Below are positions 24,901-56,374 of a DNA stretch of 64,000 nucleotides, piece after piece. Origin of the DNA: Sparassis latifolia (lineage: Eukaryota > Basidiomycota > Agaricomycetes > Polyporales > Sparassidaceae); NCBI GenBank assembly GCA_018466975.1, contig JAENRS010000020.1, forward strand, positions 62,001 to 126,000. Reading direction: 5' to 3'. The translations under genes were made by a program, and so were the position numbers. Under the pieces are notes generated by a model. It did not search any database, was not told the origin of the DNA, and saw only the letters and a program-made list of their open reading frames with translations. Every line of letters begins with the position of its first letter. The first letter of the stretch is position 1.

Positions 24901-24972
24901 TACCTGCTTATCACTATACCCCATAAAACTTTCTACAACATCAGAGTCTTTCGGTTTGGATTACCGCTCATC

Positions 24973-32051: not shown

Positions 32052-32157
32052 GGTGGTGTTCTGGGATACTGGTGTACAGGTGACTGCGATATTACAGTAA
32101 GTGGGTGGAGGGAAAGAACCAAAGAGAAGGAAGAGACACAGGTGTATATGGATGTTC

Positions 32158-32196
32158 TATATAAGAGGCAGATAATAATATGTCGCGGACGGTCCG
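32158..32196 (-). promoter_or_regulatory. AKR copy D promoter: TATA box and CGG-N5-CCG site
   Basis: TATATA at 32158-32163 lies about 107 bases before the AKR-D ATG. CGGACGGTCCG at 32186-32196 is a perfect inverted CGG/CCG pair with a 5-base spacer, the layout bound by many fungal Zn(II)2Cys6 regulators. It is conserved in the promoter of copy C and lies in the intergenic space shared with the MFS gene, so it could serve both. Binding is inferred from layout only. Confidence 0.55.
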
Positions 32197-32512
32197 ACAG
32201 AGCGCGGGACTCCGATAAATATCCTCGTCGTGCAGCTGGGACATGCCGGTGGTAAATGGCATTGTGTACCTGACCGGCGTGACTGACGCGATCGATATTG
32301 CAGACGCGTCGGCACGTGCCGATAGGTGGCACGCCCTTCTAAAAATAGGACGCGTACCATTATCTCGCCGTGACCAGGTCACACATATCCCCCTCTTTGA
32401 GTGACGGCTCTTAGTGCGCCTGCTCTGCTTATGGTTCACTGAGCGTGAAGGGCCAAATATTCTCCTGGACTAGTTTCATCTTTCCCTGATCTATGCGACT
32501 AGCTTAGTTTCT

Positions 32513-34649: not shown

Positions 34650-35090
34650 TTGGTATTGTATTTTACGGGACGCCGGAACTGGCTGTATCGTGATTCTCGG
34701 TCGTTACGATTGGTCTTGGTGGATCTCCAGATTCTTCGGTATTAATGCCCCTGCGGTTTCTTCTACTCCTACTCTCCAAGGTGGTGCCAATCCCGAGCCT
34801 CATCAGTGAACCGATTGAGCTCCCCGCTACTGCAGGCCGATGGGGACTGGAACACGCCCTGCGCAGATCTAGGGGTCTGCCATAGCTACGCGCCGTAGTT
34901 AAAACAAATATAACCGCAGTCATGTTGTATTTCTCACAGTACACCGGTATCAGAGCCGCGTCTCGTCGAACGCACAAAGTGGTGGCGTTGCAATCTGGGT
35001 CATTCTATATGGGCAACTTACCTTCCCTTTCTGCTCTGTCATGCCGTTCTAAGCTGCATACGCCCGCCTCATCAATTCCGGGAAGTACGG
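34650..35090. repeat. Spacer repeat, copy 1 (about 440 bp)
   Basis: Direct repeat of 37205-37620. Shared blocks include GTATTGTATTTTACGGGACG, TTACGATTGGTCTTGGTGGA, CGCCCTGCGCAGATCT and ACCTTCCCTTTCTGCT. It lies 3' of array member P1 and non-coding character is likely. Confidence 0.8.
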
Positions 35091-35113
35091 GATCAATGTG
35101 ATACATTGTACAA

Positions 35114-35671
35114 TCAATCATTCTGGGTGACGTCCAACGTCTGCTCCTCGTTGCCTTCCGCTTCCTCTTCCTTGCCTCCATCCTCCTCGTCTCCCTTCTC
35201 CACTTCCTTATCACCTCCTGCCTTCTTTTCAGCTCCATCATTCTCAGGCGGCCTGCCCGTCTCAGGCCAGAGGGCGTAGTTTCGGGGATTCTTGTACACC
35301 ACAGGGTACTGGAAGTACGGGTCGACGACAGTCACCCAGCGCAAGTCGTCGTCCTTAAACCCGGTCTCCTTTATGACCCGTCGCTTGATTGCGCGATCAA
35401 CATTTCGCTCCTTGAAGCGCGTCCAGTGCGCCACCGTCGCAGCGGGATCCTGGTAGTATCTCGTTGTCAGAATGATGACTGGCTGCTTGCTTCCGTGAGG
35501 ATAGTCAGTCGGGATGGGAGCCATGTTCCCAATGTGCCTCTCCTCGAACCAATCCTTGAGTGCTCCGGAAAGCTCATAAAGCTCGAGATTCTTGCAGTCG
35601 CGCCCGCCCAGCTCCAACCATGTTCGAACCTGGTCGTGAGTCAACACCCAACCGGCAATTCTGAGGACCAT
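35114..35671 (-). CDS. Array family protein P1 (185 aa)
   Basis: Function not recognised. The family consensus starts MVLRIAGWVLTHDQVRTWLE and has YELSGALKDWFEER, PIPTDYPHGSKQPVI, TRYYQDPAATVAH, a VDRAIKRRV-type helix, ETGFKDDDLRWVTVVDPYFQ and NYALWPETGRPP (about residues 1-130). A low-complexity Lys/Glu/Asp/Gly tail follows. No signal peptide or membrane segment is visible; a soluble, possibly nuclear or nucleic-acid-associated protein is conceivable but unproven. P1 is single-exon as read, and its ATG position is shared by all nine copies. Its tail ends EEQTLDVTQND. Its 5' flank has two element insertions and lacks the E-box/inverted-repeat module of the other copies. Confidence 0.85.
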   Translation of the reverse strand: MVLRIAGWVLTHDQVRTWLELGGRDCKNLELYELSGALKDWFEERHIGNMAPIPTDYPHGSKQPVIILTTRYYQDPAATVAHWTRFKERNVDRAIKRRVIKETGFKDDDLRWVTVVDPYFQYPVVYKNPRNYALWPETGRPPENDGAEKKAGGDKEVEKGDEEDGGKEEEAEGNEEQTLDVTQND

Positions 35672-35759
35672 GATCCCTGTGTTGGAAATTCACATCAGGT
35701 TGAGAAGTGCCGAATGATACGGGCAGCACTGACGTTATCAACGATGAGTTAAGACGAAT

Positions 35760-36215
35760 TTAGTGCGCGGGGAAACATGTACATTGGCGCCACCGCGGGT
35801 CCTATTTTACGTATGTAAATTACGGTAAATTTACTGGAGCAGAACTTTCTCTAGAAGTGACTTTTGTACGGCCTTCCACGTTGGCCGCAGCCTAACAGCA
35901 GGTGCATGTTGAACATATAAATACAGGTGGAAAGAGGTGCTGAGTAGCCTAGATGATTGGTGGAGTGTGGCTTAGCGTCTGGAAGGGCCTGTCACTTCTG
36001 AGGGTTCTCAGTAGTAAATTCACCTTCAATAAACGAGGCAGCACTACGAAAATGTTATTTGATTCTCCAGGGGCGTAGAATATCCCTGCTGGTATCGACT
36101 TTGCCGCCGCGCACTCGTTGGAAATCCGGGTCTAATTTACCTTATTTTACCAGGCGTTTTCGGCCAGTCTGAATTTCTATCATTTACCGGTAATTTACCT
36201 ATGCTAATTAGCCAG
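35760..36215. mobile_element. Probable insertion with TA-rich inverted repeats
   Basis: Inverted arms GTAAATTACGGTAAAT (35815-35830) and ATTTACCGGTAATTTAC (36182-36198) bound about 380 bp. The homologous 5' flank of P3 (40150-40265) lacks this stretch, so it looks like an insertion in the P1 flank. Exact ends and target-site duplication are not resolved. No coding capacity. Confidence 0.5.
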
Positions 36216-36225
36216 TAAGAGCTGC

Positions 36226-36459
36226 ATGCACCACATCAGGAAAACCCAACTTTTCCTTAGGGACTTATTTAGACTTTTGGGTCTGGCAACCCTTATTTAA
36301 GGCCATAAGTGTTTAAATAAGTCTCAATAAGTCGAATTTCAGACACTCAGGGAATATGCCTTAGGCCCTTTTTGTCCTTATGTCCTTAAATAAGGACCAT
36401 AAGTTTATATAAGTTATTTAAGTGTCTTCTTAAGGAAAAGTGGGGTTTTCCTGATGCAC
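36226..36459. mobile_element. MITE-like element with 26-bp terminal inverted repeats and ATGCAC flanks
   Basis: The left arm (36234-36259, starting CATCAGGAAAACCC) is matched by the right arm (36431-36456, ending GGGGTTTTCCTGATG) over 26 bases with a single mismatch. The interior is AT-rich, with smaller TTATTTAAG-type palindromes and no open frame. ATGCAC occurs at both edges (36226-36231 and 36454-36459). The corresponding place upstream of P3 (about 40270-40285) has one uninterrupted GCATGCATCACGTGATA, consistent with an empty site. Confidence 0.8.
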
Positions 36460-36464
36460 GTGAT

Positions 36465-37200
36465 ATGACGCCACAGCGCTTTCGGCGGAGGTTGGTTTGT
36501 GGGTCCTTGTTGTCATATCTTCGACACAATTGCCTGTTTGTCCTTATTGCCACCAAAGTGCATGCAGACTGGCCTGGAGACGACGTTCTCCCATGATAAG
36601 GACCGTGGAATGTTCTTGATATGATGGCACCGCCATCTTCTCCGGAGCGCGTCCACGCTGGTATAGAGTCAGCGTTTCGTCCCCTCCAACGTGGGGTCAA
36701 GTTGAGTTTCCGTTTCCATCCTTCCTATCGCGGAATAATTTCAGAGGCACGAAGCTAGGACAAATTTCTCATTATCAGATCTTCAGGCGAGGCGGTGCCG
36801 GCTGGCACTAGTACCACGACGCCGCATCATTATCCCGCATTCCGCGAGGTATTCCTGTCATCTGATTGTGCAGTAAGAGATGCAAGAGATTACCGTAGAA
36901 GCTCATCCAAGATCGTCCTACAATGTGGCAGCAATGTGCCATTGTGTCTTGTGATTTGCGTGTCACAATGCAATTGTCTTCAATGGGCTCCTGACTCACT
37001 TTGGTAGTCGGCGACTGCAGTATGGAAGAGGTCGTCTGTTTCAAATGTGGAGAGGCTTTACTCAATCTTCTAGATTTTGTGTAGCCATGCAAGATAGGGC
37101 TGCTGTCACGTACGTGTTGTCGGTTCTAGCCTGTCCATCTGTTTCGGAACGTGTCTTTTTCTTTCGTTCTCAGTTGGTCAATACTCATGTTGCAATCATG
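36465..37200. repeat. P1-type upstream segment, copy 1
   Basis: About 700 bp that recur at 40280-41010 upstream of P3. Shared blocks include GTGGGTCCTTGTTGTCA, GATGGCACCGCCATCTT, TATAGAGTCAGC and GGGCTCCTGACTCAC. No reading frame is conserved between the copies, so it is a non-coding part of the larger duplication unit. Confidence 0.75.
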
Positions 37201-37204
37201 TGGC

Positions 37205-37620
37205 TTCAGACTGTTGGTATTGTATTTTACGGGACGCTGGCTGTATGATGATTCTCGGTTGTTACGATTGGTCTTGGTGGATCTCCCCGATCCGTCAGTA
37301 TTAATGCCCCTGCAGTTTCTCTATCCTACTCTCCAGAGCATCAGTGCACCGATCTGATACGGCTGAGCTCCCCGCTACTGAAGGTCAATAAGCACTGGAA
37401 CACGCCCTGCGCAGATCTAAGGGTCTGCCATAGAAAGCACCGTAGGTAAAGCAACATGGCCGCAGTCATATTATGTTTCTCAAAGTACACCGGCCGCGTC
37501 TCGTCGAACGCATCAGGTGGTGATGTGGCAATCTGGGTCATTCTATATAGGGCAACCTACCTTCCCTTTCTGCTGTGTCATGCCGTTCTACGCTGCATCC
37601 GCCCGCCTCATTAATTCCAA
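37205..37620. repeat. Spacer repeat, copy 2 (about 415 bp)
   Basis: Direct-repeat partner of 34650-35090, with a few short deletions. It ends with the same GTCATGCCGTTCTA motif. Confidence 0.8.
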
Positions 37621-38106
37621 TGCAGAAGACTCGAGTACGGCTGATATGAGATTGAGTCGGTGAAGGCAGTCCTAGTGTGCGTTGACGAGTTCCTGTGTAA
37701 GCTGACAGTACTTATGTTAGGACTGCGCGAGGCTGGAAACGGGCCAACGAATTATGGCGGTCGTCGCGCCCCCTATCAAGCCAGCCTGAGAGTTGGCCTT
37801 GGGACGGTACCGCGACGATGTGCACATCATATTCCCCGTCCAACGTCCTTCGTTTGCCGGAGACGACGTAGCATTACCTGTGAATCCATTACTGGCTGGC
37901 CTATCGATGTGGAGAAGGCAAGGCGTTTACCGTCGGATGCTGAATAGTACTGGAAGAGCTTATCAACCTTCAAGTTATTCATCGAATTTCCAAAGCCCCA
38001 CAGTACTGGATGACAAAATGTTTTGTTTGTTCACCGACATCCACTGTTATTATTCTTGTGTTCGAACACAAAGGAGTACCGGAAGTACGGAATCAGTACG
38101 ACACAA

Positions 38107-38655
38107 TCAAGCACTCTCGGTGACCTCCGATGTCTGCTCCTCCTTATTGTCTCCCTTCTTGTCTCCATCCTCATCTTCCTTCTCCAATTCCTTGTCTGCA
38201 TCTTCCTTGTTCTTGGCTGTGTCTTTCTTGGGCGGCACGCCCGTCTCAGGCCAGAGGACATAGTCCCTGGGCCTCTTGTACACCACAGGGAACTGGAAGT
38301 ATGGGTCGACGACAGTCACCCAGCGCAAGTCGTCATCCTTAAACCCGGTCTCCTCCAACACCCGCCGCTTCACTTCGCGGTCAACGTTTCGCTCCACGAA
38401 ACGTGTGTAGCGCGCCACCGTGGCAGTGGGATCCTGGTGGTATCTCGTTGCCAGAATGATAACTGGCTGCTTGCTTCCGTGAGGATAGTCAGTCGGAATG
38501 GGAAGCATGTCGTCAATTTCCCGCTCCTCGAACCAATCCTTTAGTGCTCCGGAAAGCTCATAAAGCTCGAGGTTCTTGGTGTCCTGCCCGCCCAGCTCTA
38601 ACCACGTTCGAACTTCGTCATGAGTCAACACCCAACCGGCAATCCTGAGGACCAT
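38107..38655 (-). CDS. Array family protein P2 (182 aa)
   Basis: Full-length member. Differences from P1 include DEVRTWLELGGQDTKNLELY, the EREIDDMLPIP segment and a tail with KKDTAKNKEDADKELEKED, ending TSEVTESA. No stop or shift. The upstream flank carries the complete promoter module at 38846-38906. About 580 bases to the left (37530-38106) are spacer and show no other gene. Confidence 0.88.
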   Translation of the reverse strand: MVLRIAGWVLTHDEVRTWLELGGQDTKNLELYELSGALKDWFEEREIDDMLPIPTDYPHGSKQPVIILATRYHQDPTATVARYTRFVERNVDREVKRRVLEETGFKDDDLRWVTVVDPYFQFPVVYKRPRDYVLWPETGVPPKKDTAKNKEDADKELEKEDEDGDKKGDNKEEQTSEVTESA

Positions 38656-38845
38656 GACAACTGAAATTTCACATCAGCTTGAGAAGGACCAACTTTTTGC
38701 ACGGGCGCCACTAACGTTGACGAAACAATGAGCAGTTAGAGATGATGCTGGTGGACTAATGCTGGTAACTGAATGAGGTAGAAACCAGTGTACCGTAAGT
38801 AATAGACTTTATGACTTGAAGTACGCAGGTACATCTCGCTGTGGA

Positions 38846-38906
38846 CACGTGGTTACCAGTGTTCAACTGTGTCCTTCTATATCGGGAAGGGCACCTTCCC
38901 TTTCCG
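38846..38906 (-). promoter_or_regulatory. Array promoter module upstream of P2
   Basis: CACGTG E-box (38846-38851), then CTATAT and the inverted repeat GGGAAGG-GCA-CCTTCCC (38884-38900). On the minus strand the order is inverted repeat, GATATAGAAGG (TATA-like), E-box, then the gene, about 190-250 bases before the ATG. The same layout recurs upstream of P4, P5, P6, P7 and P9, and in damaged form upstream of P8. Confidence 0.65.
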
Positions 38907-39561
38907 TCCGATTCTAGTTCGAATATCGCCAGCCTGCATTCCTGTATCCTTCAAAGATTCAGTAGTACTTCACACTGCGTGCTCAATCTCTGTATCTAGT
39001 CTCTGTTTCAGATGTTCTACTGTCAGTAGCACCGGAGTGGAACCAATGCAGAGTAGAATGTCTCGTGTACTTGGATAGGCCAGGCGTAGGCGACCCCAAT
39101 TCTCACATCTCGCCTTCAGAAACACTCTTTCCGGGGACTTTAGGGCCCGCCGCCTGTTCGACAACAATTACGGCTTTCCATCGCGCGTTTCCTACTAGAA
39201 GTAGACGCCTGCTCCTCGTCCTCGTGCAGCTGTAAGTTGTTCAATTTTTATCTCCTCGGCTTTACGGCCCCTACGACGACGACCCGCTGCATGTCGGACG
39301 TATGCCCAGTCGGAAAAAGTTCCTCATCTGCCGGTAGCATTAGCTGTTGAAATCCACTGCCGCGACTGGCTGGCTAGCCTGTCGATGCGGAGAAAGCACT
39401 GGCAAGGTTAGTCCCGTCAGACTTGGTAGTACTAGGCCTATTCATCGAATTTCCGAAGCTCCTCAGTGGATGTAGAAACTTCCGTTTGTTCCCCAACACT
39501 GTTGTTACTCTTGCATTCGGACACAAAAGAATACTGGAAGTACCAAATCAACGTAACATAA

Positions 39562-40143
39562 TCAAACAGTTTGGGTGAGCTCCGACTCCTTGTCGCCCTG
39601 CTCATTCTTGTCTCCATCTTCCTTGTCGCCCTCCTCTTTCTTGTCTCCACCTTCCTTGTCTTCCTCCTCCCCTTTCTCGTCTCCATCCGCCTTTTTCTTG
39701 GTTTTGTCTTTCTTAGGCGGCCTGCCCGTCTCAGGCCAGAGAGCATAGTTCCTGGGCTTCTTGTACACCACCACAGGGTACTGGAAGTATGGGTCAATGA
39801 CGGTCACCCAGCGCAAGTCGTCATCCTTAAACCCGGTCTCCTCCAGCACCCGCCGCTTCACCTCGCGCTCAAAATCTCGCTCCGCGAAAAGCGTGTAGTG
39901 CGTCACCGTCGCAGCAGGATCCTGGTAGTATCTCGTTGCCAGAATGATAACTGGCTGCTTGGTTCCGTGAGGATAGTCAGTCGGAATAGGAACCATGTCC
40001 TCAATTTGCCTCTCCCGGAACCAATCCTTTAGTGCTCCAGAAAGCTCGTAGAACTCGAGATTCTTGGAGTCTCGCCCGCCCACTTCCAACCACGTTCGAA
40101 CTTGGTCGTAAGTCAACACCCAACCGCCAATCCTGAGGACCAT
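39562..40143 (-). CDS. Array family protein P3 (193 aa)
   Basis: Full-length member, with the longest tail together with P5: a run of Lys/Asp/Glu/Gly with repeated GDK and KKE units, ending ESELTQTV. The core has an extra Val in YPVVVYKKPRNYALWPETG, shared only with P6. Its 5' flank is of the P1 type (repeat at 40280-41010) and lacks the E-box/inverted-repeat module. P2 and P3 start 1.49 kb apart. Confidence 0.88.
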   Translation of the reverse strand: MVLRIGGWVLTYDQVRTWLEVGGRDSKNLEFYELSGALKDWFRERQIEDMVPIPTDYPHGTKQPVIILATRYYQDPAATVTHYTLFAERDFEREVKRRVLEETGFKDDDLRWVTVIDPYFQYPVVVYKKPRNYALWPETGRPPKKDKTKKKADGDEKGEEEDKEGGDKKEEGDKEDGDKNEQGDKESELTQTV

Positions 40144-40279
40144 GACAACTGTACTGAAAATTCACGTCAGCTTGAGAAGAGCCAGATGATTTGGGTAGCA
40201 CTGACATTATCAACGATGAATAGTAAAGACGATGCTAGCTGTCGGAGCCGCGATACGCTGAGTCTATATACGCATGCAT

Positions 40280-41010
40280 CACGTGATACTGACACAGCGC
40301 TTCGGTGTTGCTTTGTGGGTCCTTGTTGTCACATCTTAGAAACAATTGCCTGTTTGCCCTTACTGTCACCAAAAGGCTTGCAGACTGCCCTGGAGACGAC
40401 GGTTTTCCATGATCAGGTCCCTGGAAGTTTTTTGATGTGATGGCACCGCCATCTTTTCTAGGACGTATCCGCGCAGGTATAGAGTCAGCATTTCGTCTCC
40501 TCCAACGTGTTGTCAATCACTGAGTTTCCGTTTCCGACCTTCCTATCGTGGAGAATCTCGATGTGTGAAGTCGGGGCAAATGTCTTATTATCAGAATCTT
40601 CAGGTCCCGGCCGAGTATGTTGGTACTACCCTAGTACCAATGTGACCTAGCACCGCAACACCACATGTGAGTCGTTATCCCATAAGTGGTATAATACTAC
40701 TTCGTTGGTGCGCGTGGTATTCGATAGCTTAGCGCAGGCACCAGAGATGACACAACGATGTGGCAGCGATGCCCCATTGTGTGGTGTGCTGGTTGTAACG
40801 CAATTGTGTTGGGCTCCTGACTCACCTCGCTGCATTATGGAGAGATCTTTTTTGTTCCAATTGTGGGTAAGCTTGACCCAATATTCTATACAGAACCGAT
40901 TTCATGTACTCGTTGTTGGTTCTAGCCTCTCAATACCTCGAAACGTGAAATTTTCTTTCGTTCGCAGTTGGTCATTCCTCACGTTGCAGACATGTGTCTT
41001 CGGATTGGTG
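40280..41010. repeat. P1-type upstream segment, copy 2
   Basis: Partner of 36465-37200. Just beyond its end, the TATA box and 5' UTR of the nuclease-like gene begin, so that gene may have been captured next to this segment. Confidence 0.7.
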
Positions 41011-41045
41011 CCGTGTGTGGGCGTCTTAGACACTGCCCATGCAAA

Positions 41046-41194
41046 TATATATATGGGTGCCTCTAGCTCGCTACCCTACAGTTGCGCTGTTCATCATTCT
41101 CTTCTAGTGAGTATCATATGTTGCTCACGGATAGTGAGTTCTCTCACATATTGCTTCCTACATTACTGACCAATGCTACTGCTTTTTCATCCAG
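41046..41194 (+). promoter_or_regulatory. TATA box and 5' UTR intron of the nuclease-like gene
   Basis: TATATATAT at 41046-41054. A likely 88-nt 5' UTR intron follows (41107-41194, donor GTGAGT, acceptor TTCATCCAG), ending five bases before the ATG at 41200. Confidence 0.5.
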
Positions 41195-41199
41195 TCCCT

Positions 41200-41928
41200 A
41201 TGCCTGCAATCCCTGCGTGGTTAAGAGCACGGTTTCGCCAGATGTCCCTTTATCCACCTTCACTGGAGGCGTCCTGGTATGGTCCTATAGATCGACTCGC
41301 CAACCTCGTTTTTTCAGATGATCACTACATGGTCAAGCCACAGACTAAGCTTAGAGAGTCTGTATACGCTGGCGAAGAACCTAATGATGAAGAACCCGAT
41401 GACGAAGAGCCCGACGACGAAGAAACCGATGACGACGAATCCAGTGACGAAGGATCCGACGAAGAAGTACACAATGCGGAATTGTGGCAGGAAGGATTGT
41501 CGACAGACTCCATGGGAAAGGTAGTCCAGGCATTGTCTCGAGACACAAAAGTCTACATTCCCGACTTCGTCGTTGTTCTCTGTGATGGCATCCGAGACAT
41601 CCCAGTCATGTGCATCGAAGTCAAGAAGAATGATGAGTCACAGGAATCTTCAATAATCCAGCTGCGCGAATACATGTCGATTATAGGTGGCAAGGATCCA
41701 CACGAGGATTTCGTGGGTATGCTGGTACTGGGCGGGCGGTTTTACACATTCCGCTTTCAAATCACAAAGGAGGATGACAGCGAAGGCGAGGCACAGAAGC
41801 AGGTCACGGCGAGGAGGAACCCCACCCCAATGGGCAAGGGGTGGGACACTGCGGAGAAACTGGAGGGTGCGTTTTTGACTGTCGTAAAAAATGTGGCAAA
41901 GAGGGAGAAGCTGGAGGCTGAGGCCTAG
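41200..41928 (+). CDS. PD-(D/E)XK-nuclease-like protein with acidic tract (242 aa)
   Basis: Residues 59-90 are an acidic tract (EEPDDEEPDDEETDDDESSD). Then comes a compact domain with YIPDFVVVLCDG (P121-D122) and, after a beta-like spacer, MCIEVKK (E140-V-K142) and a Q154-L-R-E-Y helix. PD...EVK...Q is the pattern of the PD-(D/E)XK superfamily, which includes restriction-like nucleases and catalytically dead relatives. A following GMLVLGGRFYTFRF strand fits the fold. A nuclease or DNA-binding role is inference from the motif alone. Single coding exon after a probable 5' UTR intron; I chose ATG 41200 because the upstream in-frame ATG (41173) falls inside that intron. It sits within the array on the opposite strand. 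Confidence 0.65.
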   Translation: MPAIPAWLRARFRQMSLYPPSLEASWYGPIDRLANLVFSDDHYMVKPQTKLRESVYAGEEPNDEEPDDEEPDDEETDDDESSDEGSDEEVHNAELWQEGLSTDSMGKVVQALSRDTKVYIPDFVVVLCDGIRDIPVMCIEVKKNDESQESSIIQLREYMSIIGGKDPHEDFVGMLVLGGRFYTFRFQITKEDDSEGEAQKQVTARRNPTPMGKGWDTAEKLEGAFLTVVKNVAKREKLEAEA

Positions 41929-42404
41929 GTTCTCAATGCATGATACTTCCACATATCGGTCTGCTGCGTTCGTCTGTCTATTATCGTACCAAAGAAATGT
42001 GCACCTGCTGAATATCGGATGAATCGCCCCAAGACTGACATCGAGACTTGCTATGACGGACATCAACAAGCGTAGATCACGCCACTGAGATTAATGTTGC
42101 TAGGTAAGTAGCCAGGGTCTCGGTACTGTTTTAAGTATTCATCACAGGGCTTATGCCATTCAGGAGAATCGACGTCTTACACGCGGCTCGTAATGAATAT
42201 GACCGCCAGACGGCAGGAAGTACCATTCTCATTCTCTTGTACACATCTAAATCCCTTCTAGTAAGTGGAAGGAGTAAAGAGGAGCGCATCGCTCTTGGCG
42301 GGTACTAGGAAGCGGTTAAATGCGAAGATATGACAACGGAGAATGGGCTCCAGCGCCGCGCAGTAGTATTTGGCAGCAGCCTCGCCAAGCCTTGCGCATG
42401 CAAG

Positions 42405-43510
42405 TCAACTGATTAATGCGTGGAGAGTGACAGCTTCATTCGCAAAGTGGATACGGCTCCAAGACACGAACTGTGAACTAAATGCAACTTGAATGCCGCT
42501 GTATAGAACACTATTAGGATAATGCCGCAAAGAAGAAGGCCAAGAACTTACTGCTTGTATATGTAGGCGAAAAGCGTCAGGATTCAGATCCTTGACCAGA
42601 TCGTCATCTCTCATATCTCGCCGCAGGCTTCGATATTCTCCTCTAACTCGTTATACTGAGTCAACGACCACCCGAAGCATCCCGGAATCCTCCTGCATAT
42701 TTTCGTTCTCTCGAATCGCGAAAATCTTCCTTCTGTGTCTGCAAGTAACGCTTTCCCCACCTCGGGTCCGTTCATCCATCCCTTGAGACACACCATTTAT
42801 TCCTGAAGCGCAACAGGGCTTGGCACAGAGCCCTTCATGAGAATCCTGTCGATGATGGTCCGAGCCGTCTCGAAGGTGCCTAGGAACCTAGCAGTTACCG
42901 ACCCGAGATCTAGTATAGGGTTCCACCATCTCTCTTGAAATTCTTCCTCCCAGCGCCGACGAAGATTAGACGGCACCCAGCCCCGTCGAATAGTGATAGC
43001 TATGATGACATTCCACGTAACACAGGGCTCGCATAAGTTCATGAATATGCGAACGTTCACGAGCGGGGTTCTGGCAATGCGCTTGTCAGAAATCCGGTGC
43101 ATGCAGATGAGATACCCACAAGTGTGATGCGTCTCGTGTGCCTAAAATCGCAAAAAAAGTGCGAAAGCTCTTCCACACCAGAACTTACGTCTTGGAGAGT
43201 AATCTCGCGGTCGTTCTGAGTATCTCGGTATCTGACTTGTTGGTATCGTCGAATTCAGGTGTGTCGACCAAAGACGACCTCGCGAGAGTCAGCAAGTTGG
43301 ACGCGAATGGTTTGAATTTTCGTCGGTAAGTGGTTGAAGATTGTGCCCCGTGATTTCTGAGCCTTGTTGAATTGTAGAACTCGTAAGCTAGATGCACGAA
43401 GTCAGTGCAGCTAGCGTCAGAGTAAGGAAACGATCCCACTGTACTCTTCTCCACACAAGTTGGACCCATCAGTAACAGTGCGCGTAACACATAACGCGTT
43501 TCGCGCATGC
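42405..43510 (-). pseudogene. Decayed AIG1-like/P-loop GTPase gene
   Basis: Recognisable in order on the minus strand: a damaged Walker A motif (MGPTCVEKST, with Glu where the last Gly is required), SLVDTPEFDDTNKSDTEIL (normally VDTPGFDDT), then MHRISDKRIARTPLVNVR and a C-terminal helix (GKALLADTEGRF). These match the P-loop GTPases that are abundant in agaricomycetes. The frame shifts between SKT and MHRISD near 43140-43190, and a stop (42797-42799) interrupts the line before the C-terminal part. I consider it dead. Confidence 0.7.
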
Positions 43511-44651: not shown

Positions 44652-45236
44652 CTAAAGCACCATAGTGCCAGATGTTATAGAAACTTCTGTTTGTACACCG
44701 ACACTGTTGTGCGTACCACTCGACGTCTGCTCCTTCTTGTCCCCATCCTCCTTGGCTTTCTTCTCCACTTCGTTATCTCCATCCCCCTTATTCTCCGCTT
44801 CATCTTCCTCTGGCGGCGCGCCCGTCTCAGGCCAGAGGGCATAGTTCCTGGGATGCCTGAACATCACAGGGTCATGGAAGTACGGGTCAATGACAGTCAC
44901 TCAGCACAAGTCGTCATCCTTGAACCCGGTCTGCTCCAACACCTGCCGCTTCACTTTGCGGCCAACGGCTCTCTCCACGAAACGCGTGTAGTGCATCACT
45001 GTCGCAGCGGGATCCTCGTAGTATCTCGTAGTCAGAAGGATGATCGGCTGCTTGCTTCCGCGAGGATAATCAGTCGGGATGGGAGCCATATATCTGATTT
45101 GCCTCTCCTCGAACCACTCCTTGAGTGCTCCGGAAAGCTCATAATACTCGAGAGTCTTGTATTCCCGCCCGCCGCACTGCAACCGCTTGCGAACTTGGTC
45201 GTAAGTGAACATCCAACCGCCAATTCTGAGCACCAT
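44652..45236 (-). pseudogene. Array family member P4, with an internal stop
   Basis: Reads the whole family core (MVLRIGGWMFTYDQVRKRLQ ... DDDLC), then TGA at 44899-44901 where all others have TGG (DDLRWVTV). After the stop the frame continues correctly through VTVIDPYFHDP and NYALWPETG to a Lys/Glu tail. Unlike the others, the tail runs straight into NSVGVQTEVS, a segment that in the other copies lies downstream in conserved 3' sequence. About 55 bases are missing here compared with P5. Truncated at about 111 residues unless the stop is read through. Confidence 0.85.
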
Positions 45237-45515
45237 GACAGCTGAAAATTCACATCAGATTCAGAAGAGCTAAATGGTACGGGTAGCACTGACGTTATCA
45301 ATGATGAATGACAACTGAAAGTTCACATCAGCTTGAGAATAACCAAATTGTACAGGCGGCACTGACGTTGACGACACAATGAGCAGTTAGAGATGATGCT
45401 AGTGAAGTGATGCTGGTAACTGAATGAGGTGGAAACCAGTGTACCGTAGCAATAGACTTTACGACTGTTCAGGCCTTCAGGTACGCAGATACGTCTCTTC
45501 CCAAGTTGCGGTGGA

Positions 45516-45576
45516 CACGTGATCGCCAGTGTTCAACTGTGTCCTTCTATATCAGGAAGGGCACCTTCCCTTTCCG
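45516..45576 (-). promoter_or_regulatory. Array promoter module upstream of P4
   Basis: CACGTG at 45516-45521, CTATAT and AGGAAGG-GCA-CCTTCCC at 45554-45570. The first arm base differs from the consensus. Confidence 0.6.
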
Positions 45577-46368
45577 TCCGATTCTGGTTCGAATGTCGCC
45601 AGCCTGCGTTCCTGTATCCTTCAAGGATTCACTAGTACTTCACACCGTGTGCTCGATCTCTGTATCTAGTCTCTATTTCAGACGTTCTACTGTCGGTAGC
45701 ACCTGAGCGGAGATCAAAATAACCAGTGCAGAATAGAATCTCTGGTGTGCTTGGGTAGGTCAGGCGCAGGTAAGTAACCCCAACTCTTACATCTATAATA
45801 TCGCCTTGCGAAATACCTTTTCAATGCCTCAGTAAACCTGTAGTTGGCGCACAGTTGTGCGCGGACAGCAAATCGCTTGCAAGATCTCGCGTTTCCTCAG
45901 ACTGGCAGTATACACACATTCTCCACACCACAAGTCGAGCACGTACTCCTCAGTCGGGAGCCTGCTCCTCATCGTCGTGCAGTTGTAACCTGTTCAAGCT
46001 TTTACTTCCCTGGCTTTACAGCCGTTTGGACCACCATCTGCTGCTCTAACAATGCACGGAGGCGTGTCGGATGGACGCCTAGTCCCAGGTTCCTCGTCTG
46101 CCAGTAGCATTAGCTGTTGAAGCCACGGGCGCGACTGGCTGGCCAGGGCTGGCCTGTCGACGTGGAGAAATCACTGGCAGGACGAGTTCCGTCAGAATTG
46201 GTAGTATTTCGAGTGGAAGAGAAGCAATTACAACACTGTCGGATCTATTCATCGAATTTCCGAAGCTCCACAGTGGACATAGAGACTTCTGTTTGTTCAC
46301 CAACGCTGTTGTTATTCTTGCACTCGGATACACAGGAATACTGAAAGTAATGACTCAACGTGACACGA

Positions 46369-46950
46369 TCAAACCGTCTGGGTGACATCCGACTCCTCGT
46401 CACCCTCCTCTTTCTTGTCTCCGTCCACCGTGTCTCCCGCGTCCTCTTTCTTTTCTCCATCTTCTTTGTCCTCCACCGTCCCCTTCTTGTCTGCATCCGC
46501 CATCTTCTCGGCTCTGTCTTTCTGAGGAGGCACGCCCGTCTCAGGCCAGAGGACGTAGTTCCTGGGCCTCTTGTACACCACAGGATACTGGAAGTATGGG
46601 TCGGCGACAGTCACCCAGCGCAAGTCGTCATCCTTAAACCCGGTCTCCTCCAACACCCGCCGCTTCACTTCGCGGTCAACGTCTCGTTCCACGAAACGCG
46701 TGTAGCGCGCCACCGTGGCAGCGGGATCCGGGTGGTATCTCGTCACCAGCATGATAACTGGCTGCTTGCTTCCGTGAGGATAGTCAGTCGGAATGGGAAG
46801 CATGTCGTCAATTTTCCGCTTCTTGAACCAATCCTCTAGAGCTCCGGAAAGCTCATAGAGTTCGAGATTCTTGGTGTCCTGCCCGCCCAGCTCCAACCAC
46901 GTTCGAACTTGGTCGAAAGTCAACACCCAACCGCCAATCCTGAGGACCAT
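46369..46950 (-). CDS. Array family protein P5 (193 aa)
   Basis: Full-length member. Core variants include TFDQVRTWLELGGQDTKNLE, DWFKKRKIDDMLPIP and TRYHPDPAATVARYTRF. The tail is rich in EKK, GDK and VDGD units and ends ESDVTQTV. No stop or shift. The start is 126 bases from its promoter module. Confidence 0.88.
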   Translation of the reverse strand: MVLRIGGWVLTFDQVRTWLELGGQDTKNLELYELSGALEDWFKKRKIDDMLPIPTDYPHGSKQPVIMLVTRYHPDPAATVARYTRFVERDVDREVKRRVLEETGFKDDDLRWVTVADPYFQYPVVYKRPRNYVLWPETGVPPQKDRAEKMADADKKGTVEDKEDGEKKEDAGDTVDGDKKEEGDEESDVTQTV

Positions 46951-47040
46951 GAGCTGTACTGAAAATTCTCATTAGCTTAAGAACTCGAAAAGCCAAATGG
47001 TACGGGCACAGACGTTTATCAATATTGACGAATGAAACAA

Positions 47041-47097
47041 CACGTGGTTCAAGTTCAACTGTGTCCTTCTATATCGGGAAGCCCACCTTCCCCTTAC
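47041..47097 (-). promoter_or_regulatory. Array promoter module upstream of P5
   Basis: CACGTG at 47041-47046, CTATAT and GGGAAG-CCCA-CCTTCCC from 47076. The loop is altered but both arms are kept. Confidence 0.6.
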
Positions 47098-47863
47098 GTT
47101 AGAATCTAGTTCATCGTCAACCGTGTTCCTGTGATCCTTCAAGAGTTCACTAATGCTTATAATTACTCGTCAAGCTTCATGCCTTGGTCAACGTTTCTGT
47201 ATCTATTTTCGGTTCCAGAGACTCTACAGTCGGTGGCACCTGAGCGGAAATCAAAACAAACAATGCTGCTAGTACCTTGTAGAACGGATAGGTCAGCTAT
47301 AGGAGTCTCACATCTCGCCGCCTAAAATGGCCTGTCGGCACGTCAGGAACCCTATAGTAAGCATATCGTTCTGCGTAGACAGCGAAACAAATCTCCATAC
47401 TCTTTCCGGGCCCGCCACGCACTGCTCTTGAACCGCGGCGATCCAAATCAAGACCTCCTGTTTCCTAGCGGTACGGTACATAAACATGCTAGACAGTATA
47501 AAAATATCCCGGTTTTATGATGTAAGGCCGTGCCTCTTAGTGCCTCTGTCTTACGACGACCCGCTGCTGGCTCATAACGAGGAAGCATGTCAGAGGTATG
47601 TCCAGTGTAACGTTTCTCATTTGCTTGTAGTATCAACTGTTGCAGCCGACGCGGGAGAAAGTACAACTCGGACTAGAACTAGAAGAGAGGTAATTACATT
47701 ATTGTCGAATCTATTCCTAAATTTCCGAAGTCCCGCAGCGCGTATAAAGAAACTTCCGTTTGTTCACCGGCACTGTTGCTATTCTCGTGTTCAGACACAA
47801 GCACTCCAGAATTTACCTAGTCAATGCGATACAATCAAGCATCTGGCCGGCATCCAACTTCTA

Positions 47864-48430
47864 CTATTCCTCTTTATCGCCGTCCTCTTTCTCTACTCCA
47901 CCGCCCTTGTCTTCCTTCTCCACTGCCGTGTCTCTATCCGTCTTGTCTCCCTTCTCCACTTGTTTGTGTCCATCTGCCCTCTTCTTGGTTCTGTCTTTCT
48001 TAGGCGGCCTGCCCGTCTCAGGCCAGAGAGCATAGTTCCTGGGCTTCTTGTACACCACCACAGGATACTGGAAGAACGGGTCAATGACGGTCACCCAACG
48101 CAAGTCGTCATCCTTAAATCCGGTCTCCTCCAACACCCGCCGCTTCACCTCGCGGTCAAAATCTCGCTCCACGAAAAGCGTGTAGTGCGTCACCGTCGCA
48201 GCGGGATCCTGGTAGTATCTCGTTGCCAGAATGACAACTGGCTTCTTGGTTCCGTGAGGATAGTCAGTCGGAATGGGAGTCATGTCCTCAATTTTCCTCT
48301 CCTTGAACCAATCGTCTAGTGCTCCGGAAAGCTCATAGGGTTTGAGGTTCTTGGTGTCCTGCCCGCCCAGCTCCAACCACGTTCGAACTTGGCGGTAAGT
48401 CAACACCCAACCGCCAATCCTGAGGACCAT
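47864..48430 (-). CDS. Array family protein P6 (188 aa)
   Basis: Full-length member with TYRQVRTWLELGGQDTKNLK, DDWFKERKIEDMTPIPTDYP and the YPVVVYKKPRN insertion seen in P3. The tail ends GGGVEKEDGDKEE, shorter than in P3 or P5. An in-frame ATG seven codons upstream (48451) exists, but the family start at 48430 is preferred. Confidence 0.87.
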   Translation of the reverse strand: MVLRIGGWVLTYRQVRTWLELGGQDTKNLKPYELSGALDDWFKERKIEDMTPIPTDYPHGTKKPVVILATRYYQDPAATVTHYTLFVERDFDREVKRRVLEETGFKDDDLRWVTVIDPFFQYPVVVYKKPRNYALWPETGRPPKKDRTKKRADGHKQVEKGDKTDRDTAVEKEDKGGGVEKEDGDKEE

Positions 48431-48516
48431 GTGCTGTATGAAAACTCTCATTAGCTTAAGAACTCAAAAAGCAATATGGTACGGGCACCGACGTTTATCA
48501 ATGATGAACGAAACGA

Positions 48517-48576
48517 CACGTGGTTCAAGTTCAACTGTGTCGTTCTATATCGGGAAGGGCACCTTCCCCTTACGTC
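48517..48576 (-). promoter_or_regulatory. Array promoter module upstream of P6
   Basis: CACGTG at 48517-48522, CTATAT and a perfect GGGAAGG-GCA-CCTTCCC from 48552, about 90-145 bases before the ATG. Confidence 0.62.
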
Positions 48577-49396
48577 TAGTTCATCGTCAACCGCGGTCCT
48601 GTGATCCTTCAAGAGTCCACTAATGCTTATAATTACTCGTCAAGCTTCATGCCTTGGTCTACGTTTCTGTATCTATTCTCTGTTCCAGAGACTCTACAGT
48701 TGGTGGCACCTGAGCGGAAATCGAAACAAACAATGCTGCTAATACCTTGTAGAACGTCTGGCATACTTGGATTGGTCGGGTATAGGTCTCACATTTCGTC
48801 CCCGAACATGGCCTGTCGACACTTCAGGAACCCTATAGTAAGCATATTGTTCTGCGTAGACAGCGAAACAAATCTCCTCCATACGCTTTCCGGGCCCGCC
48901 ATGCATGTCGGCGATCCAAATCAAGACGTCCCGTTTACTAGCGGCGCATAAGCATGCTAAGCAATCTAAAATTATACAAAAAGTCAGACGCCACTCTCCC
49001 ACTGGGAGCCTTCTCCCGTCATTGCGCGGCAGTTCGAGTTTAATTTTCCCGGTTTTATGTGAGGCCGTGCTACTGTCTTACAATGACTATCCACTCGCAC
49101 ATAAGGGGGACGCATGTCAGAGGTATGTCCAGTGCCACGTTCCTCATCTGCCTGTAGTATCAACTATTGAAGCTACTGGCTGGCCTGTCGACGCAGGAGA
49201 AAGTACGGTCAGACTCGGAATAGAACGGGAAGAGAGGCAATTACATTATTGTCGGATCTACTCATAAATTTCCAAAGTTCCACAACGCAGATATAGAAAC
49301 TTGATTTTGTTCACTGTTATTCAGACATTTAAAAAATACTGGAAGTACTGAATCAACGCGATGCAATCAAGCATTCTGGGTGACACTCAACTTTTA

Positions 49397-49960
49397 CTAC
49401 TCCGCTTTGTCGCCTTCCTCCTTCTTAACTCCGTACTCGTTGTCTCCCTTCTCCACTGCCTTGTATCCATCCGCATTGTCTCCCTTCTCTACTTCCTTGC
49501 CTCCATCCGCCTTCTCTTCGGCTCCATCACTCTCAGGCGGCCTGCCGGTCTCAGGCCAGAGGGCATAGTTCCTGGGATTCTTGTACACCACAGAGTACTG
49601 AAAGAACGGATCGACAACAGTGACCCAGCGCAAGTCGTCGTCCTTAAACCCGGTCTCCTCCAACACCCGCCTCTTGATTTCCCGGTCAACGTCTCGCTCC
49701 ATGAAGCGCTTCCAGTGCGCCACCGACGCAGTGGGATCCTGGTAGTATCTCGTTGTCAGAATGATAACTGGCTGCTTGCTTCCGTGAGGATAGTCAGTCG
49801 GAATGGGAGTCATGTCCTGAATTTTCCTCTCCAGGAGCCAATCATCTAGTTCCCCGGAAAGCTCGTAAGGCTCGAGATTCTTGCAGTCGCGCCTGCCCAG
49901 CTCCAACCACGTTCGAACTTGGTCGAAAGTCAGCAACCAGCCAGCAATTCTGAGGACCAT
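49397..49960 (-). CDS. Array family protein P7 (187 aa)
   Basis: Full-length member with AGWLLTFDQVRTWLELGRRD, a YELSGELDDWLLERKIQDM variant and VDREIKRRVLEETGFKDDDL. The tail has repeated EKGDN units and ends KKEEGDKAE. The frame is open 16 codons upstream to another ATG, but the shared start is at 49960. Confidence 0.87.
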   Translation of the reverse strand: MVLRIAGWLLTFDQVRTWLELGRRDCKNLEPYELSGELDDWLLERKIQDMTPIPTDYPHGSKQPVIILTTRYYQDPTASVAHWKRFMERDVDREIKRRVLEETGFKDDDLRWVTVVDPFFQYSVVYKNPRNYALWPETGRPPESDGAEEKADGGKEVEKGDNADGYKAVEKGDNEYGVKKEEGDKAE

Positions 49961-50164
49961 GACGGCAGTGCTGAAAATTCCAATCAGCCTGGGAACTCGA
50001 AGAACCAAAGATGGTACGGGTAGTACTCACGTTCATCAACGATGAGTGAAACAACGAGCAGTTAGGGATGATGCTGGCGATCTTAGACCGGTAACTGAAG
50101 GTGTAAGGACCAGTGTACTGTCAGTAATAGTTTATGACTTCAGGTACGTCGTTGTCGCCGTGGA

Positions 50165-50224
50165 CACGTGGTTGTAGTTCAACTGTATCCTTTTATATCG
50201 GGAAGGGGACCTTCCCTTTCCGTC
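50165..50224 (-). promoter_or_regulatory. Array promoter module upstream of P7
   Basis: CACGTG at 50165-50170, TTATATC and GGGAAGG-GGA-CCTTCCC from 50200. Confidence 0.6.
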
Positions 50225-50983
50225 CGGGCCAACCTGCTTTCTTGAGATTCACTAGTACTTCACAGCATGTTCTTATGTCTCTGTATGAATTCTATGTTCT
50301 AGGTGTTTTACAGTTGCTAGTAGCTAAGCGAAGATCAATAAATTAATGCAGCTACATAGGACCTCAAGAGAACGTCTGCACTTGGGTAGGTCAGGTGCCA
50401 TAGGCGACCTCAAAATTTCCCGTACTCTTTCTCGGCTCTCTAGCTTCACGCCATTGTGTTCTATGGCGCTGCTCTCGAACGGGGGCAATCCAAGCCAAGA
50501 TCTCGGGTTTCCTACCGGGATATAAACATGCGACACAATATACAAATACACAATGAATTGTGCATGAAGGGATCCGGAACCTCCTCCTCCTCGTCGTACA
50601 GCTGTTCGAGTTTAACTTTCCCGGCTTTACGGCTGTACAGCTACACGACCCGCAACACGCGCATCGCACGGAGGCATGTCGAACGTACATCTGGTCTGAC
50701 ATATTTCATCTGCTGATGCTAGTATTAGCTGTAGAATCCACGACTGGCTGGTCACGGTTGGCCTGTCGACGTGGAGAAAACAAGGTGAGTATTGTCATAC
50801 TAGTAACGCTGGAACAGAGAAAATTGCATTATTTTCCACCCGATTCATCGAATCACCACAGCTATACCGAGTGCCAGATGGAAACTTCTGCTTGTTCCCG
50901 ACACTGCTGTCATTGCATTCAGACATAAAGGAATACCGGAAGTACGGGGTCAACGTGATACACTCAAGCATTCTGGGTGATGT

Positions 50984-51517
50984 CTACTGTTTCTCCTTGT
51001 CTCCCGCTTCCTCTTTCTTGTCTCCATCCCCCTCGTCTCCCTTCTCCACTTCCTTGTCTCCATCTGCCTTCTTCTCGGCTCCATTATTCTCAGGCGGCCT
51101 GCCCGTCTCAGGCCAGAGCGCATAATTTCTGGGATTCTTGTACACCACAGGGTACTGGAAGTATGGGTCGACGACAGTCACCCAGCGCAAATCATCATCC
51201 TTAAACCCGGTCTCCTCCAACACCCGCCGCTTGATTGCGCGGTCAACATCCCGCTCCATAAAGCGCGTCCAGTGCGCCACCGTCGCAGCGGGATCCTGGT
51301 AGTATCTCATTGTCAGAATGATGACTGGCTGCTTGCTTCCGTGAGGATAGTCAGTCGGAATAGGAACCATGTCGTCAATTTGCCTCTCCTCGAACCAATC
51401 CTTGAGTGCTCCGGAAAGCTCATAAAGCTCGAGATCCTTGCAGTCCTGCCCGCCCAGTTCCAACCATGTTCGAACCTCGTCGTGAGTCAACACCCAACCG
51501 GCAATTCTAAGGACCAT
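50984..51517 (-). CDS. Array family protein P8 (177 aa)
   Basis: Full core, closest to P1 by eye (THDEVRTWLELGGQDCKDLE, WFEERQIDDMVPIP, VDRAIKRRVLEETGF, YKNPRNYALWPETGRPPENN). The tail is short and ends KKEEAGDKEKQ. The stop falls a few bases before the position where P2 and P3 continue with a Thr-Ser-Glu-Val-type end, so the tail may be prematurely closed. Confidence 0.87.
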   Translation of the reverse strand: MVLRIAGWVLTHDEVRTWLELGGQDCKDLELYELSGALKDWFEERQIDDMVPIPTDYPHGSKQPVIILTMRYYQDPAATVAHWTRFMERDVDRAIKRRVLEETGFKDDDLRWVTVVDPYFQYPVVYKNPRNYALWPETGRPPENNGAEKKADGDKEVEKGDEGDGDKKEEAGDKEKQ

Positions 51518-51715
51518 GATAACTGTGTTGGAAATATACGTCAGCTTCGGAAGATTGTACGGGGAAACAAGGAGTAGTTAGAGATGATGCTAGTCGACTG
51601 ACGCTGGTAACTGAATGAGGCAGGAACCGGTATGCTGTTGGTAATAGTAGACTCTGAACTCTAAGATTTGAGGTACGCCACGGCAGGTACTTCTCTTCCG
51701 AGGTCGCTGTGGACT

Positions 51716-51775
51716 CGTGGCTGTCGTTCAACTGTGTCACTCCTTCTATGTCGGGAAGGGCACCTTCCCTTTTCA
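51716..51775 (-). promoter_or_regulatory. Damaged array promoter module upstream of P8
   Basis: The E-box position reads CTCGTG instead of CACGTG. The inverted repeat GGGAAGG-GCA-CCTTCCC (from 51753) is perfect, and the TATA-like stretch is CTATGTC. Confidence 0.5.
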
Positions 51776-52315
51776 TTCGAGTCTAGTTCATCGCCAACCT
51801 GTGTTCCTGTGATCTATCAAAGATTCACTAGTCTTCGCACTGTGTTCTAGATCTCCGTATCTACTAGGACATATACTCCTGAAGGCATCTGGAGCCTGCT
51901 GCTCGTCGGCAAGTAGTTGCTCGAGTTCAACTTTCCCAGCTTTACTACGGCTGTACGGCTGCGCAACCCGTTACACGCGTATAGAACGGAGACGTGTCGG
52001 ACGCACGTCTAGTTCGACGTTCCTCATCTCCTGACCCTAGTGTTCGCCGTTGGATGCACGACTGGCTGGCCGGGGTTGGTCCGTCGACGGAGAGAGAGCA
52101 AGGTAAGCATCGTCATACTGGTCCTGGAATTGTGTTATCGTACACCCTATTCATCGAATCATCACAACTCCGCAGTGCGCGATAGGAACTTCTGCTTGTT
52201 CCTCGACATTGTTGTCATTATTGCATTCAGACATGAAGCTTGAAGGAGTAGGAGTACGGGCCGTAAGCACGGGATCAACGTGATACAAGCAAGCACTCTG
52301 GGTGACCTCCGACGT

Positions 52316-52849
52316 CTACTCCCCCGCCTTATCTCCCGCTTCCTCTTTCTTGCCTCTATCGTCCTTGTCTCCCTTCTCCTCTCCCTTGTCTCCACCCTCC
52401 TTATTCTCGGCTTCATCTTCCTCAGGCGGCATGCCCGTCTCAGGCCAGAGGACGTAGTTCCTGGGGTACTTGTACACCACATCGTGGTGGAAGTATGGGT
52501 CGACGACAGTCACCCAGCGCAAGTCGTCATCCTTCAATCCAGTCTCCTCCAACACCTGCCGCTTCACTTTCCGGTCAACATCTCTCTCCCTGAAACGCGT
52601 GTAGTGAGCCACCGTCGAGGCGGGATCCTCGTGGAATCGCGTAGTCAGAAGTATAATTGGCTGCTTGCTTCCGTGAGGATAGTCAGTCGGGATGGGAGCC
52701 ATATATCTGATTTGCCTCTCCTCGAACCACTCCTTGAGTGCTCCTGTAAGCTCATAATACTCGAGCGTCTTGTATTCCCGACCGCCGCGCTCCAACCATT
52801 TACGAACTTGGTCGTGAGTGAACACCCAACCGGCAATCCTGAGGACCAT
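52316..52849 (-). CDS. Array family protein P9 (177 aa)
   Basis: Rightmost (first in minus-strand order) member. Together with P4 it forms a subtype: THDQVRKWLERGGREYKTLE, YELTGALKEWFEERQIRYM, MAPIPTDYPHGSKQPIILLT and VDRKVKRQVLEETGLKDDDL, with EDEAENKEGGDKGEEKGDK in the tail. Ends EEAGDKAGE at a stop; conserved sequence beyond it would read TSEVTQSA as in P2. The frame is open upstream to 52996, but the shared start is 52849. Confidence 0.87.
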   Translation of the reverse strand: MVLRIAGWVFTHDQVRKWLERGGREYKTLEYYELTGALKEWFEERQIRYMAPIPTDYPHGSKQPIILLTTRFHEDPASTVAHYTRFRERDVDRKVKRQVLEETGLKDDDLRWVTVVDPYFHHDVVYKYPRNYVLWPETGMPPEEDEAENKEGGDKGEEKGDKDDRGKKEEAGDKAGE

Positions 52850-52930
52850 GACAACTGTGATGAAGATCCACGTCAGCTTGGAAGAAGCCAAATAGTATGG
52901 GCGCTTCATATCAATATTGCAACTGTTGGG

Positions 52931-52985
52931 CACGTGGTTAGTGCGGTAACCTTCTATATTGGGAAACGCACCTTCCTTTTCCGTT
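52931..52985 (-). promoter_or_regulatory. Array promoter module upstream of P9
   Basis: CACGTG at 52931-52936, CTATAT and a weaker inverted repeat GGGAA-ACGCACC-TTCC from 52961. The right boundary of the array lies shortly after. Confidence 0.5.
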
Positions 52986-52999
52986 CGAGTCGTCATCTA

Positions 53000-54258
53000 T
53001 CCTTCCAATTTTCATCCTTCAAGCTCTTGCAAGCTTCAAAGCTTCAAGCTTCAAGGTTTACACGGTGTTATATCTCGAGCTCTTTATATGTGGTAAGCGC
53101 ATCTGCACATACCTATATTATTCTAGATTCTGTTGCAGACTGTTTCGACATGCTCTTTCCTGGTTGTCCTGGTAAGATTACTAGTATCGTGACCAAAAAA
53201 GCATTATTTCTCAGATTGCAGCGAGTTCAAGCAGTAATCCGTGTCATTTTTCGATGCTTTTACTTCCCCGGAGTATTCACCTAGGTGCCAGCTGCAATTT
53301 ACGGGCTGCGCTGACCTGCAGGCAATGTATCCAGGTTCCCCCATTGCTTGACGAGCTCGCGATGGAGATTTTAAACCCAATGGTTCGGTATTCGAGTAAT
53401 TGTCCCCGACGGACATGGTGAAGACTGTGCGGAATGTCGCTGTAGAGGGAGTGGTACCGACTTCCAGGGTGCGTAATCTTATCTTATCTCGCGGTAACTC
53501 CACTTTTCCGAAGTTACCGTGCTGCGGTGCAAACCTATCCAGCTCCCCAGCTGATGACCAACTCCATGCAGCCCGCAACACCTTGTTCTCTCCATCGGGT
53601 TCACGAGAAAGAGGCTCATCGGCTCGGGAGGCGCGGCCTGCGGGGTCGGCTCAGAATCGAGCGATAAGATGTCGGACATCTCGTCGTCCTTGCTTCTGAT
53701 AGTTGAACTAAGCAATGCCTACAGCGAAGACCAGTAACTGAAGCGATGGGCGACGAGAGAAAGCTACAGACAGGAAGTCTGGCAGAAGAAGTGAAAGCTA
53801 GAATGTCGCAAGTGGGAGTGAAGTAAAGTGAAGCATCGTCATATAACGTAATTAGGGGGAAAGCCCGAAAAGTTACGGTTACGTGAAAAAGTAACTTTAT
53901 ACGCACTCCTACCGAGTCCATCTCGTGCTCAGGCCCTAGCTACGCGGTACTATGCGTAAAATATATAGTTATCTCCTCGCGTGCTCGACTTCACTAGCTT
54001 GCTGTCTTCGCCTTACCAGGTAGCGGGTCCTGCCGTGCTTGCACGGCGCTACAACCTTATCGTTCATTCGATTCTTCAAGCGCTAGCAGTTGAACTTATT
54101 TCAATGAATTGACCACCTTGGATGGAAACCTTCCGTCTAGCCACTAATCTGCCTCTTCTTTGTTTCACACTCTCAATAGGGTAGCGCATCCTCCAATGTA
54201 AGAGTACAGAAGTCTATCTCTGCCATTTAAGCTGCTGAATCTTTGTAGTATCGGGCCA
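53000..54258. other. Gap between the array and the BTB gene
   Basis: Two overlapping minus-strand frames (53204-53581 and 53479-53715) look mildly protein-like. A start MSDILSLDSEPTPQAAPPEP is followed, in another frame, by a stretch with GNFGKVELPRDKIR. I cannot join them by an intron and recognise neither. The rest, including the promoter of the BTB gene, shows nothing. Confidence 0.4.
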
Positions 54259-56370: not shown

Positions 56371-56374
56371 ACAC

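Follow-up and report, generated by a model that had tools for sequence, protein, structure and literature searches.

A purifying-selected tandem array of a small-protein gene family in Sparassis latifolia and its divergent linkage to a nuclease-like gene

In bacterial modules, a small immunity-type gene is linked to a nuclease gene and is often duplicated. Bacterial nuclease toxin/immunity-gene modules are the subject of PMC3482391, and the Spok spore killers of Podospora have a nuclease domain needed for killing and another domain that gives resistance, according to PMC6660238 and PMC9972908. The present study concerns a 64-kb stretch of DNA from the basidiomycete Sparassis latifolia, hereafter the window, corresponding to bases 62001–126000 of contig C20 (223,903 b) in an assembly of 41.4 Mb and 22 contigs. 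The window contains, at 35114–52849, a tandem array of nine copies (c1–c9) of a small-protein gene family, all on the minus strand, and between c3 and c4, on the plus strand, a gene whose product looks like a PD-(D/E)XK/QxxxY nuclease. This array arose by an old tandem expansion, and the small single-domain protein that it encodes is under purifying selection. The two genes may constitute an old divergent module of a nuclease and a small partner, most likely an inhibitor or antidote, in which the partner was amplified; this reading is put forward tentatively, with somewhat less than even confidence.

Nine same-strand copies with a conserved core and variable charged tails had been described in the initial annotation, and both points were confirmed. 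The core, from MVLRI to LWPETG, comprises 139–140 codons, and the tails comprise 38–55 residues with 11–31% K+R and 25–42% D+E. Copies c2–c9 showed 82–92% core DNA identity to c1 over 300 nt, and the frame was open in eight of the nine copies, c4 having a single in-frame stop within the core; the counterpart of c4 in S. crispa (P0009) is intact. The repeats are spaced 1.3–5.1 kb apart and their homology reaches into the flanks, so the array is not due to chance. The spacing is irregular, with larger gaps at c1–c2 and c3–c4 that break the array, the c3–c4 gap containing another gene. Next to c3, the intergenic positions 40280–41010 are 69% similar to 36457–37216, upstream of c1.

Nonsynonymous (dN) and synonymous (dS) divergence was compared for core and tail separately. 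In the core, the 36 copy pairs gave a mean dN of 0.121 and a mean dS of 0.341 (pair range 0.13–0.61), with a median dN/dS of 0.36 (range 0.18–0.60) and no pair above 1; similar values were obtained for five core pairs by YN00 and pairwise maximum likelihood. When the reading frames were compared, the pooled ratio of nonsynonymous to synonymous differences (pN/pS) was 0.41 in the sense frame vs 0.57–1.43 in the other five. Four sister pairs were picked with the help of the tree, the pseudogene c4 belonging to one of them; their pooled core pN/pS was 0.34 (Fisher p 2e-11) and that of the tail 0.60 (p 0.005), the counts being rounded and the tests approximate. The core is thus under purifying selection, and the array copies are old, constrained genes, not a dead satellite. 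A dead, satellite-like array, to which the pseudogene and the damaged family copies also found on C4, C11 and C8 could point, is very improbable given the eight open frames, the counterparts of the array proteins among the annotated genes of S. crispa and S. latifolia, and core ratios of at most 0.60, where the initial annotation expected values near 1 in all copies of such an array.

The tail dN/dS had a median of 0.56 among the eight intact copies and exceeded 1 in 3 of 28 pairs. The coding strand of the tails is 69–83% purine, and tandem repeats were detected by Tandem Repeats Finder (TRF) in five of the nine (c2, c3, c7, c8 and c9), with periods of 12–36 bp that are all multiples of three. 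In-frame slippage of purine-rich minisatellites is therefore the simplest source of the variation in tail length. The interpretation given in the initial annotation was upheld in part: within the searches made the family stays unrecognised, and selection for diversity is not supported, slippage being the simpler explanation.

In the same genome, the gene lying between c3 and c4 has clear relatives at C10:4780071, C1:1641894 and C1:1635696, all three of them open frames, which gives four open reading frames (ORFs) of 192–251 aa. The encoded proteins are 24–44% identical to one another. Their alignment contains 27 invariant columns, including E, YGP, PDF (P-D), EVK (E-V-K) and Q-x3-Y, which we take to be the PD-(D/E)XK/QxxxY signature; P-D...E-x-K with a downstream Q-x3-Y occurs in all four homologs, and the assignment to this nuclease class rests on these motifs. 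The C10 query joined all four loci.

All four clear nuclease-like loci of this genome are divergent from a small-protein member and lie 1.0–1.8 kb from it, and no clear nuclease-like locus without such a partner was found in this genome. The partners are 24–60% identical, and in the comparisons of partners and of nucleases alike the C10 and C1 pairs group together to the exclusion of the C20 pair. Among ORFs of at least 40 aa in 6 kb of C10, 8.1 kb of C1 and 30 kb of the window (blastp, E ≤ 1e-3), only the two families and their antisense shadows were common to the regions compared, apart from one 37-aa match at E 4e-4. The probability that a random gene start lies no further than 2 kb from one of the 28 listed family loci was 0.0022 (0.0006 for the head-to-head arrangement), a value computed after the linkage had been noticed and from loci that are partly redundant. 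On C1, positions 1637440–1638245 and 1640195–1641000 form an 806-bp inverted repeat of 95.7% identity. It covers the DNA upstream of two family members, and since the proteins of these two share only 60% identity, gene conversion is suggested.

Relatives of the small protein (12, 33 and 32 matches) were found among about 5.8 billion proteins in Sparassis, Suillus, Rhizopogon and unnamed metagenome proteins. As far as this protein-database search reaches, which finds only relatives with short exact words in common, the named relatives are confined to the three genera and are all hypothetical proteins; the description of the family as unrecognised, and not a housekeeping one, holds to that extent. 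The fifteen proteins P0012–P0026 are 43–54% identical to c8, and P0031 and P0033 32–34%. The proteins from Suillus, Rhizopogon and metagenomes (P0012–P0033) share a homologous core with the array copies; unlike the latter, the Suillus-type proteins are mostly of about 122 residues and have neither the LWPETG segment nor a charged tail. Divergent members, used as queries against the same genome, added C6:557602, C10:3060821, C8:455932, C7:2553829, C10:4727504, C10:4778476, C1:1622558, C1:1634282, C1:1638064 and C1:1639981. Only G, T, D and P are invariant in an alignment of 23 members, the last three forming a TxxDP ending. In the tree, the array copies are split from the Suillus, C6 and distant members with a support of 92; the array therefore probably expanded within the Sparassis lineage.

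The AlphaFold2 model of c8, built with 26 sequences, showed block means of the predicted local distance difference test (pLDDT) of 79–91 over residues 1–120, whereas most of the tail, which is probably disordered, scored under 50. For a Suillus member, a mean pLDDT of 82.9 and a predicted template modelling (pTM) score of 0.77 were obtained. Both models have a small beta-alpha-beta-beta-alpha-beta core with the same predicted order of elements (beta1, helix pair, beta2, beta3, helix, beta4), from which a ferredoxin-like arrangement may be read; no confident PDB structure match of any kind was returned for them. Foldseek showed a weak similarity to regulatory ferredoxin-like proteins of PII type, with a best E of 0.13 and no hit at E ≤ 0.001. 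No Pfam cut-off was reached by the 15 small proteins with scores or by the first members of two further member sets, and the sole NCBIfam score shown was that of P0013, 16.3 of the 83 bits required. The C-terminal domain of the RNA polymerase subunit Rpb5 (Rpb5_C, PF01191) gave weak matches in 13 of 19 members, of 12.3–16.9 bits where shown, and was rejected as an identity since its cut-off of 23.5 bits was not reached.

An origin of the family as a degenerate form of Nudix hydrolase is hardly credible, despite a local similarity that spans roughly one helix and one strand. Profile searches of PDB sequences returned Nudix proteins in 9 of 10 matches with a Sparassis-rich alignment (best E 0.0029) and in 6 of 18 with a wider one (best E 0.0016), and the Pfam NUDIX family matched three members in a set of 7 and three in a set of 19 (E 0.0014 at best). 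These matches are partial, mostly covering one helix–strand stretch that resembles Rpb5_C just as weakly, and the best score of 19 bits (c8), with 14–16 bits in three others, falls below the PF00293 cut-off of 21.1 bits wherever bits are shown. The Nudix box is GX5EX7REUXEEXGU, or at least REUXEEXGU. Neither was present in any of 23 members, a loose xxUxEExGU being found in 13, and the EExG motif is absent from the distant paralogs. The small proteins are also short, most of the Suillus-type ones ending right after the Nudix-like stretch. Their predicted element order, beta-alpha-alpha-beta-beta-alpha-beta, appears to differ from that of the Nudix fold.

Divergent linkage kept at 24–44% nuclease identity suggests that the two genes work together as a module made up of a nuclease-like effector and a small partner. 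The effector would have nucleic acid as its target, while the partner would most likely bind the effector and serve as its dedicated inhibitor or antidote. Partner loci are many and nuclease-like loci few, a ratio that would fit an amplified antidote, and partners may have been amplified and scattered without the nuclease because extra solo copies would raise the inhibitor dose or cover several nucleases. The presence of a nuclease-like gene next to the array gives more substance to a role in conflict, one of the examples proposed in the initial annotation, though this role continues to be an interpretation. In a wider form, which we regard as unlikely, the pair would represent a novel eukaryotic nuclease–antidote module of mushroom-forming fungi, in which a stand-alone PD-(D/E)XK nuclease is divergently paired with an antidote of ferredoxin-like fold. 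Amplification would have turned the antidote genes into arrays whose charged tails are tuned by slippage, and such arrays might serve as libraries of resistance in conflicts within the genome or between nuclei.

Several observations weigh against the nuclease–antidote reading. The nuclease-like proteins gave no PDB sequence match; one of the four, that of the window, reached 18.4 bits with the Pfam TnsA-like N family (cut-off 26.5 bits), and two of the three scanned with PADLOC were weakly similar to Cas4 (E about 0.03). At E ≤ 0.001 the C20 query matched C10 only; one of the C1 proteins reached C20 only at E 0.035 and the other did not reach it. A fifth match, weak in this case, at C8:2863665 (29 aa, E 0.018), has no known family member nearby. 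The homology of the pairs is partly transitive: the C10:4778476 query gave no array match even at E ≤ 10, the C10 partner being joined through a C1 member (the C1:1622558 query matched the array at a best E of 8e-7 and C10:4778476 at 6.5e-30). As the two C1 pairs share the inverted repeat, they are counted once, which leaves three independent pairs. The linkage comes from a single genome and drew attention only post hoc, and it could descend from one ancestral gene pair.

The last point leads to the proposal that the genes have no functional relation, gene order having been kept by descent from one ancestral two-gene locus and the array reflecting birth-and-death of an orphan gene with another cellular role. 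Such a history is nearly as probable as the inhibitor reading: the tandem duplicates, one of them a pseudogene, the relics and copies with damaged frames at other places, the origin of the C1 pairs with an inverted duplication, and the lack of a nuclease near most family loci all agree with it, and what it accounts for less readily is that adjacency and orientation persist at such low nuclease identity with almost no other ORF in common between the regions compared. The same linkage would serve equally if the module were functional and the small protein a targeting, DNA-binding or assembly subunit, for instance against transposons or viruses, instead of an inhibitor. An adaptor for nucleic acids or proteins could well look like this small compact domain with its charged tail, and the weak Foldseek similarity to PII-type proteins is compatible with it; this option is nevertheless improbable, the many partner copies without a nuclease being harder to explain and no nucleic-acid-binding family having scored above its Pfam cut-off. 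The nuclease–antidote module remains the preferred reading. If the pairing is functional, the tandem array of an orphan gene would be explained, and the orphan family would gain a testable hypothesis; if it is not, the array still documents an expansion in this lineage, under purifying selection and with tails made of minisatellites.

Table 1. Features of the array region in window coordinates, and the four divergent gene pairs of the genome.
Feature	Position or genes	Strand or orientation	Description
c1	35114..35671	-	small protein, core + charged tail, 185 aa, open
c2	38107..38655	-	182 aa, open
c3	39562..40143	-	193 aa, open; nuclease-like gene is head-to-head neighbour
c3 tail minisatellite	39587..39685	-	33-bp (and 15–18 bp) repeat coding part of tail (TRF)
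Intergenic stretch, c3 / nuclease-like gene	40144..41172	.	divergent, 1.03 kb
Nuclease-like gene	41173..41928	+	PD-(D/E)XK/QxxxY-like, 251 aa, open
Tandem repeat in nuclease-like gene	41373..41476	+	15/30-bp; codes acidic insertion
c4	44652..45236	-	one in-frame core stop; pseudogene in this strain
c5	46369..46950	-	193 aa, open
c6	47864..48430	-	188 aa from MVLRI, open
c7	49397..49960	-	187 aa from MVLRI, open
c8	50984..51517	-	177 aa, open; structure predicted
c9	52316..52849	-	177 aa from MVLRI, open; frame stays open upstream to 52996
C20 pair	nuclease-like gene (41173–41928) to c3	divergent	1030 bp
C10 pair	nuclease-like gene to C10:4778853	divergent	1218 bp
C1 pair	nuclease-like gene to C1:1640376	divergent	1518 bp
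C1 pair	nuclease-like gene to C1:1638064	divergent	1793 bp

The segment C20:193978–223903 matches the end of C4 (C4:3341776–3372000) in reverse at 98.9–99.0% identity, C20 probably continuing C4; C20:210695 and C4:3354795 would then be one family locus. A further segment, C11:2876831–2906000, is 98% identical to C4:3332001–3361321, either as a segmental duplication or as a redundant assembly, C11:2886501–2906000 being the part that corresponds to the C20/C4 overlap. Owing to this redundancy the total copy number of the family is uncertain. In the right flank of the array, window positions 54000–56500 recur at 86–93% identity close to the C4 and C11 copies, in an orientation opposite to that seen here with respect to the genes; the region resembles a BTB/POZ-type gene, as judged by eye, and Pfam detected nothing in two of its ORFs. 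Near the array, two ORFs of the APH phosphotransferase family and one fungal protein kinase (PF17667) ORF were located at 24814–25662, 28918–29511 and 12686–13537, and an ORF at 8484–9140 contains a DUF4470 domain above cut-off. An MFS-like transporter region spans 30277–33532 and 26288–28343 (MFS_1, 30 bits vs a cut-off of 33.4), with a tandem copy of 80% identity on the same contig. A nested cluster of dispersed repeats, with many 90–100% copies genome-wide, occupies C20:156001–161300.

Linkage of the two genes, by which toxin–antidote systems are judged, was found at all four clear loci, three of them independent, in one genome. Membership of the Spok family was rejected: a nuclease and a kinase are not combined in one polypeptide here, and no Pfam kinase match was obtained in the four nuclease-like ORFs. 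In Spok, a fungal PD-(D/E)XK nuclease as killing part is accompanied by a separate neutralising function, within one polypeptide in which a kinase domain provides the resistance (PMC6660238 and PMC9972908). The pair described here resembles Spok in the first respect, both roles being putative, and by this analogy the partner may be an inhibitor; it differs in having a stand-alone nuclease-like protein and a separate, non-kinase candidate partner. Unlike the bacterial modules, the putative module is fungal and divergent rather than co-directional, and no secretion cassette was noticed. If the pairing is functional, it would represent a basidiomycete two-gene nuclease/partner system that follows a logic like that of the Spok killers or the bacterial nuclease/immunity pairs and is built from other parts.

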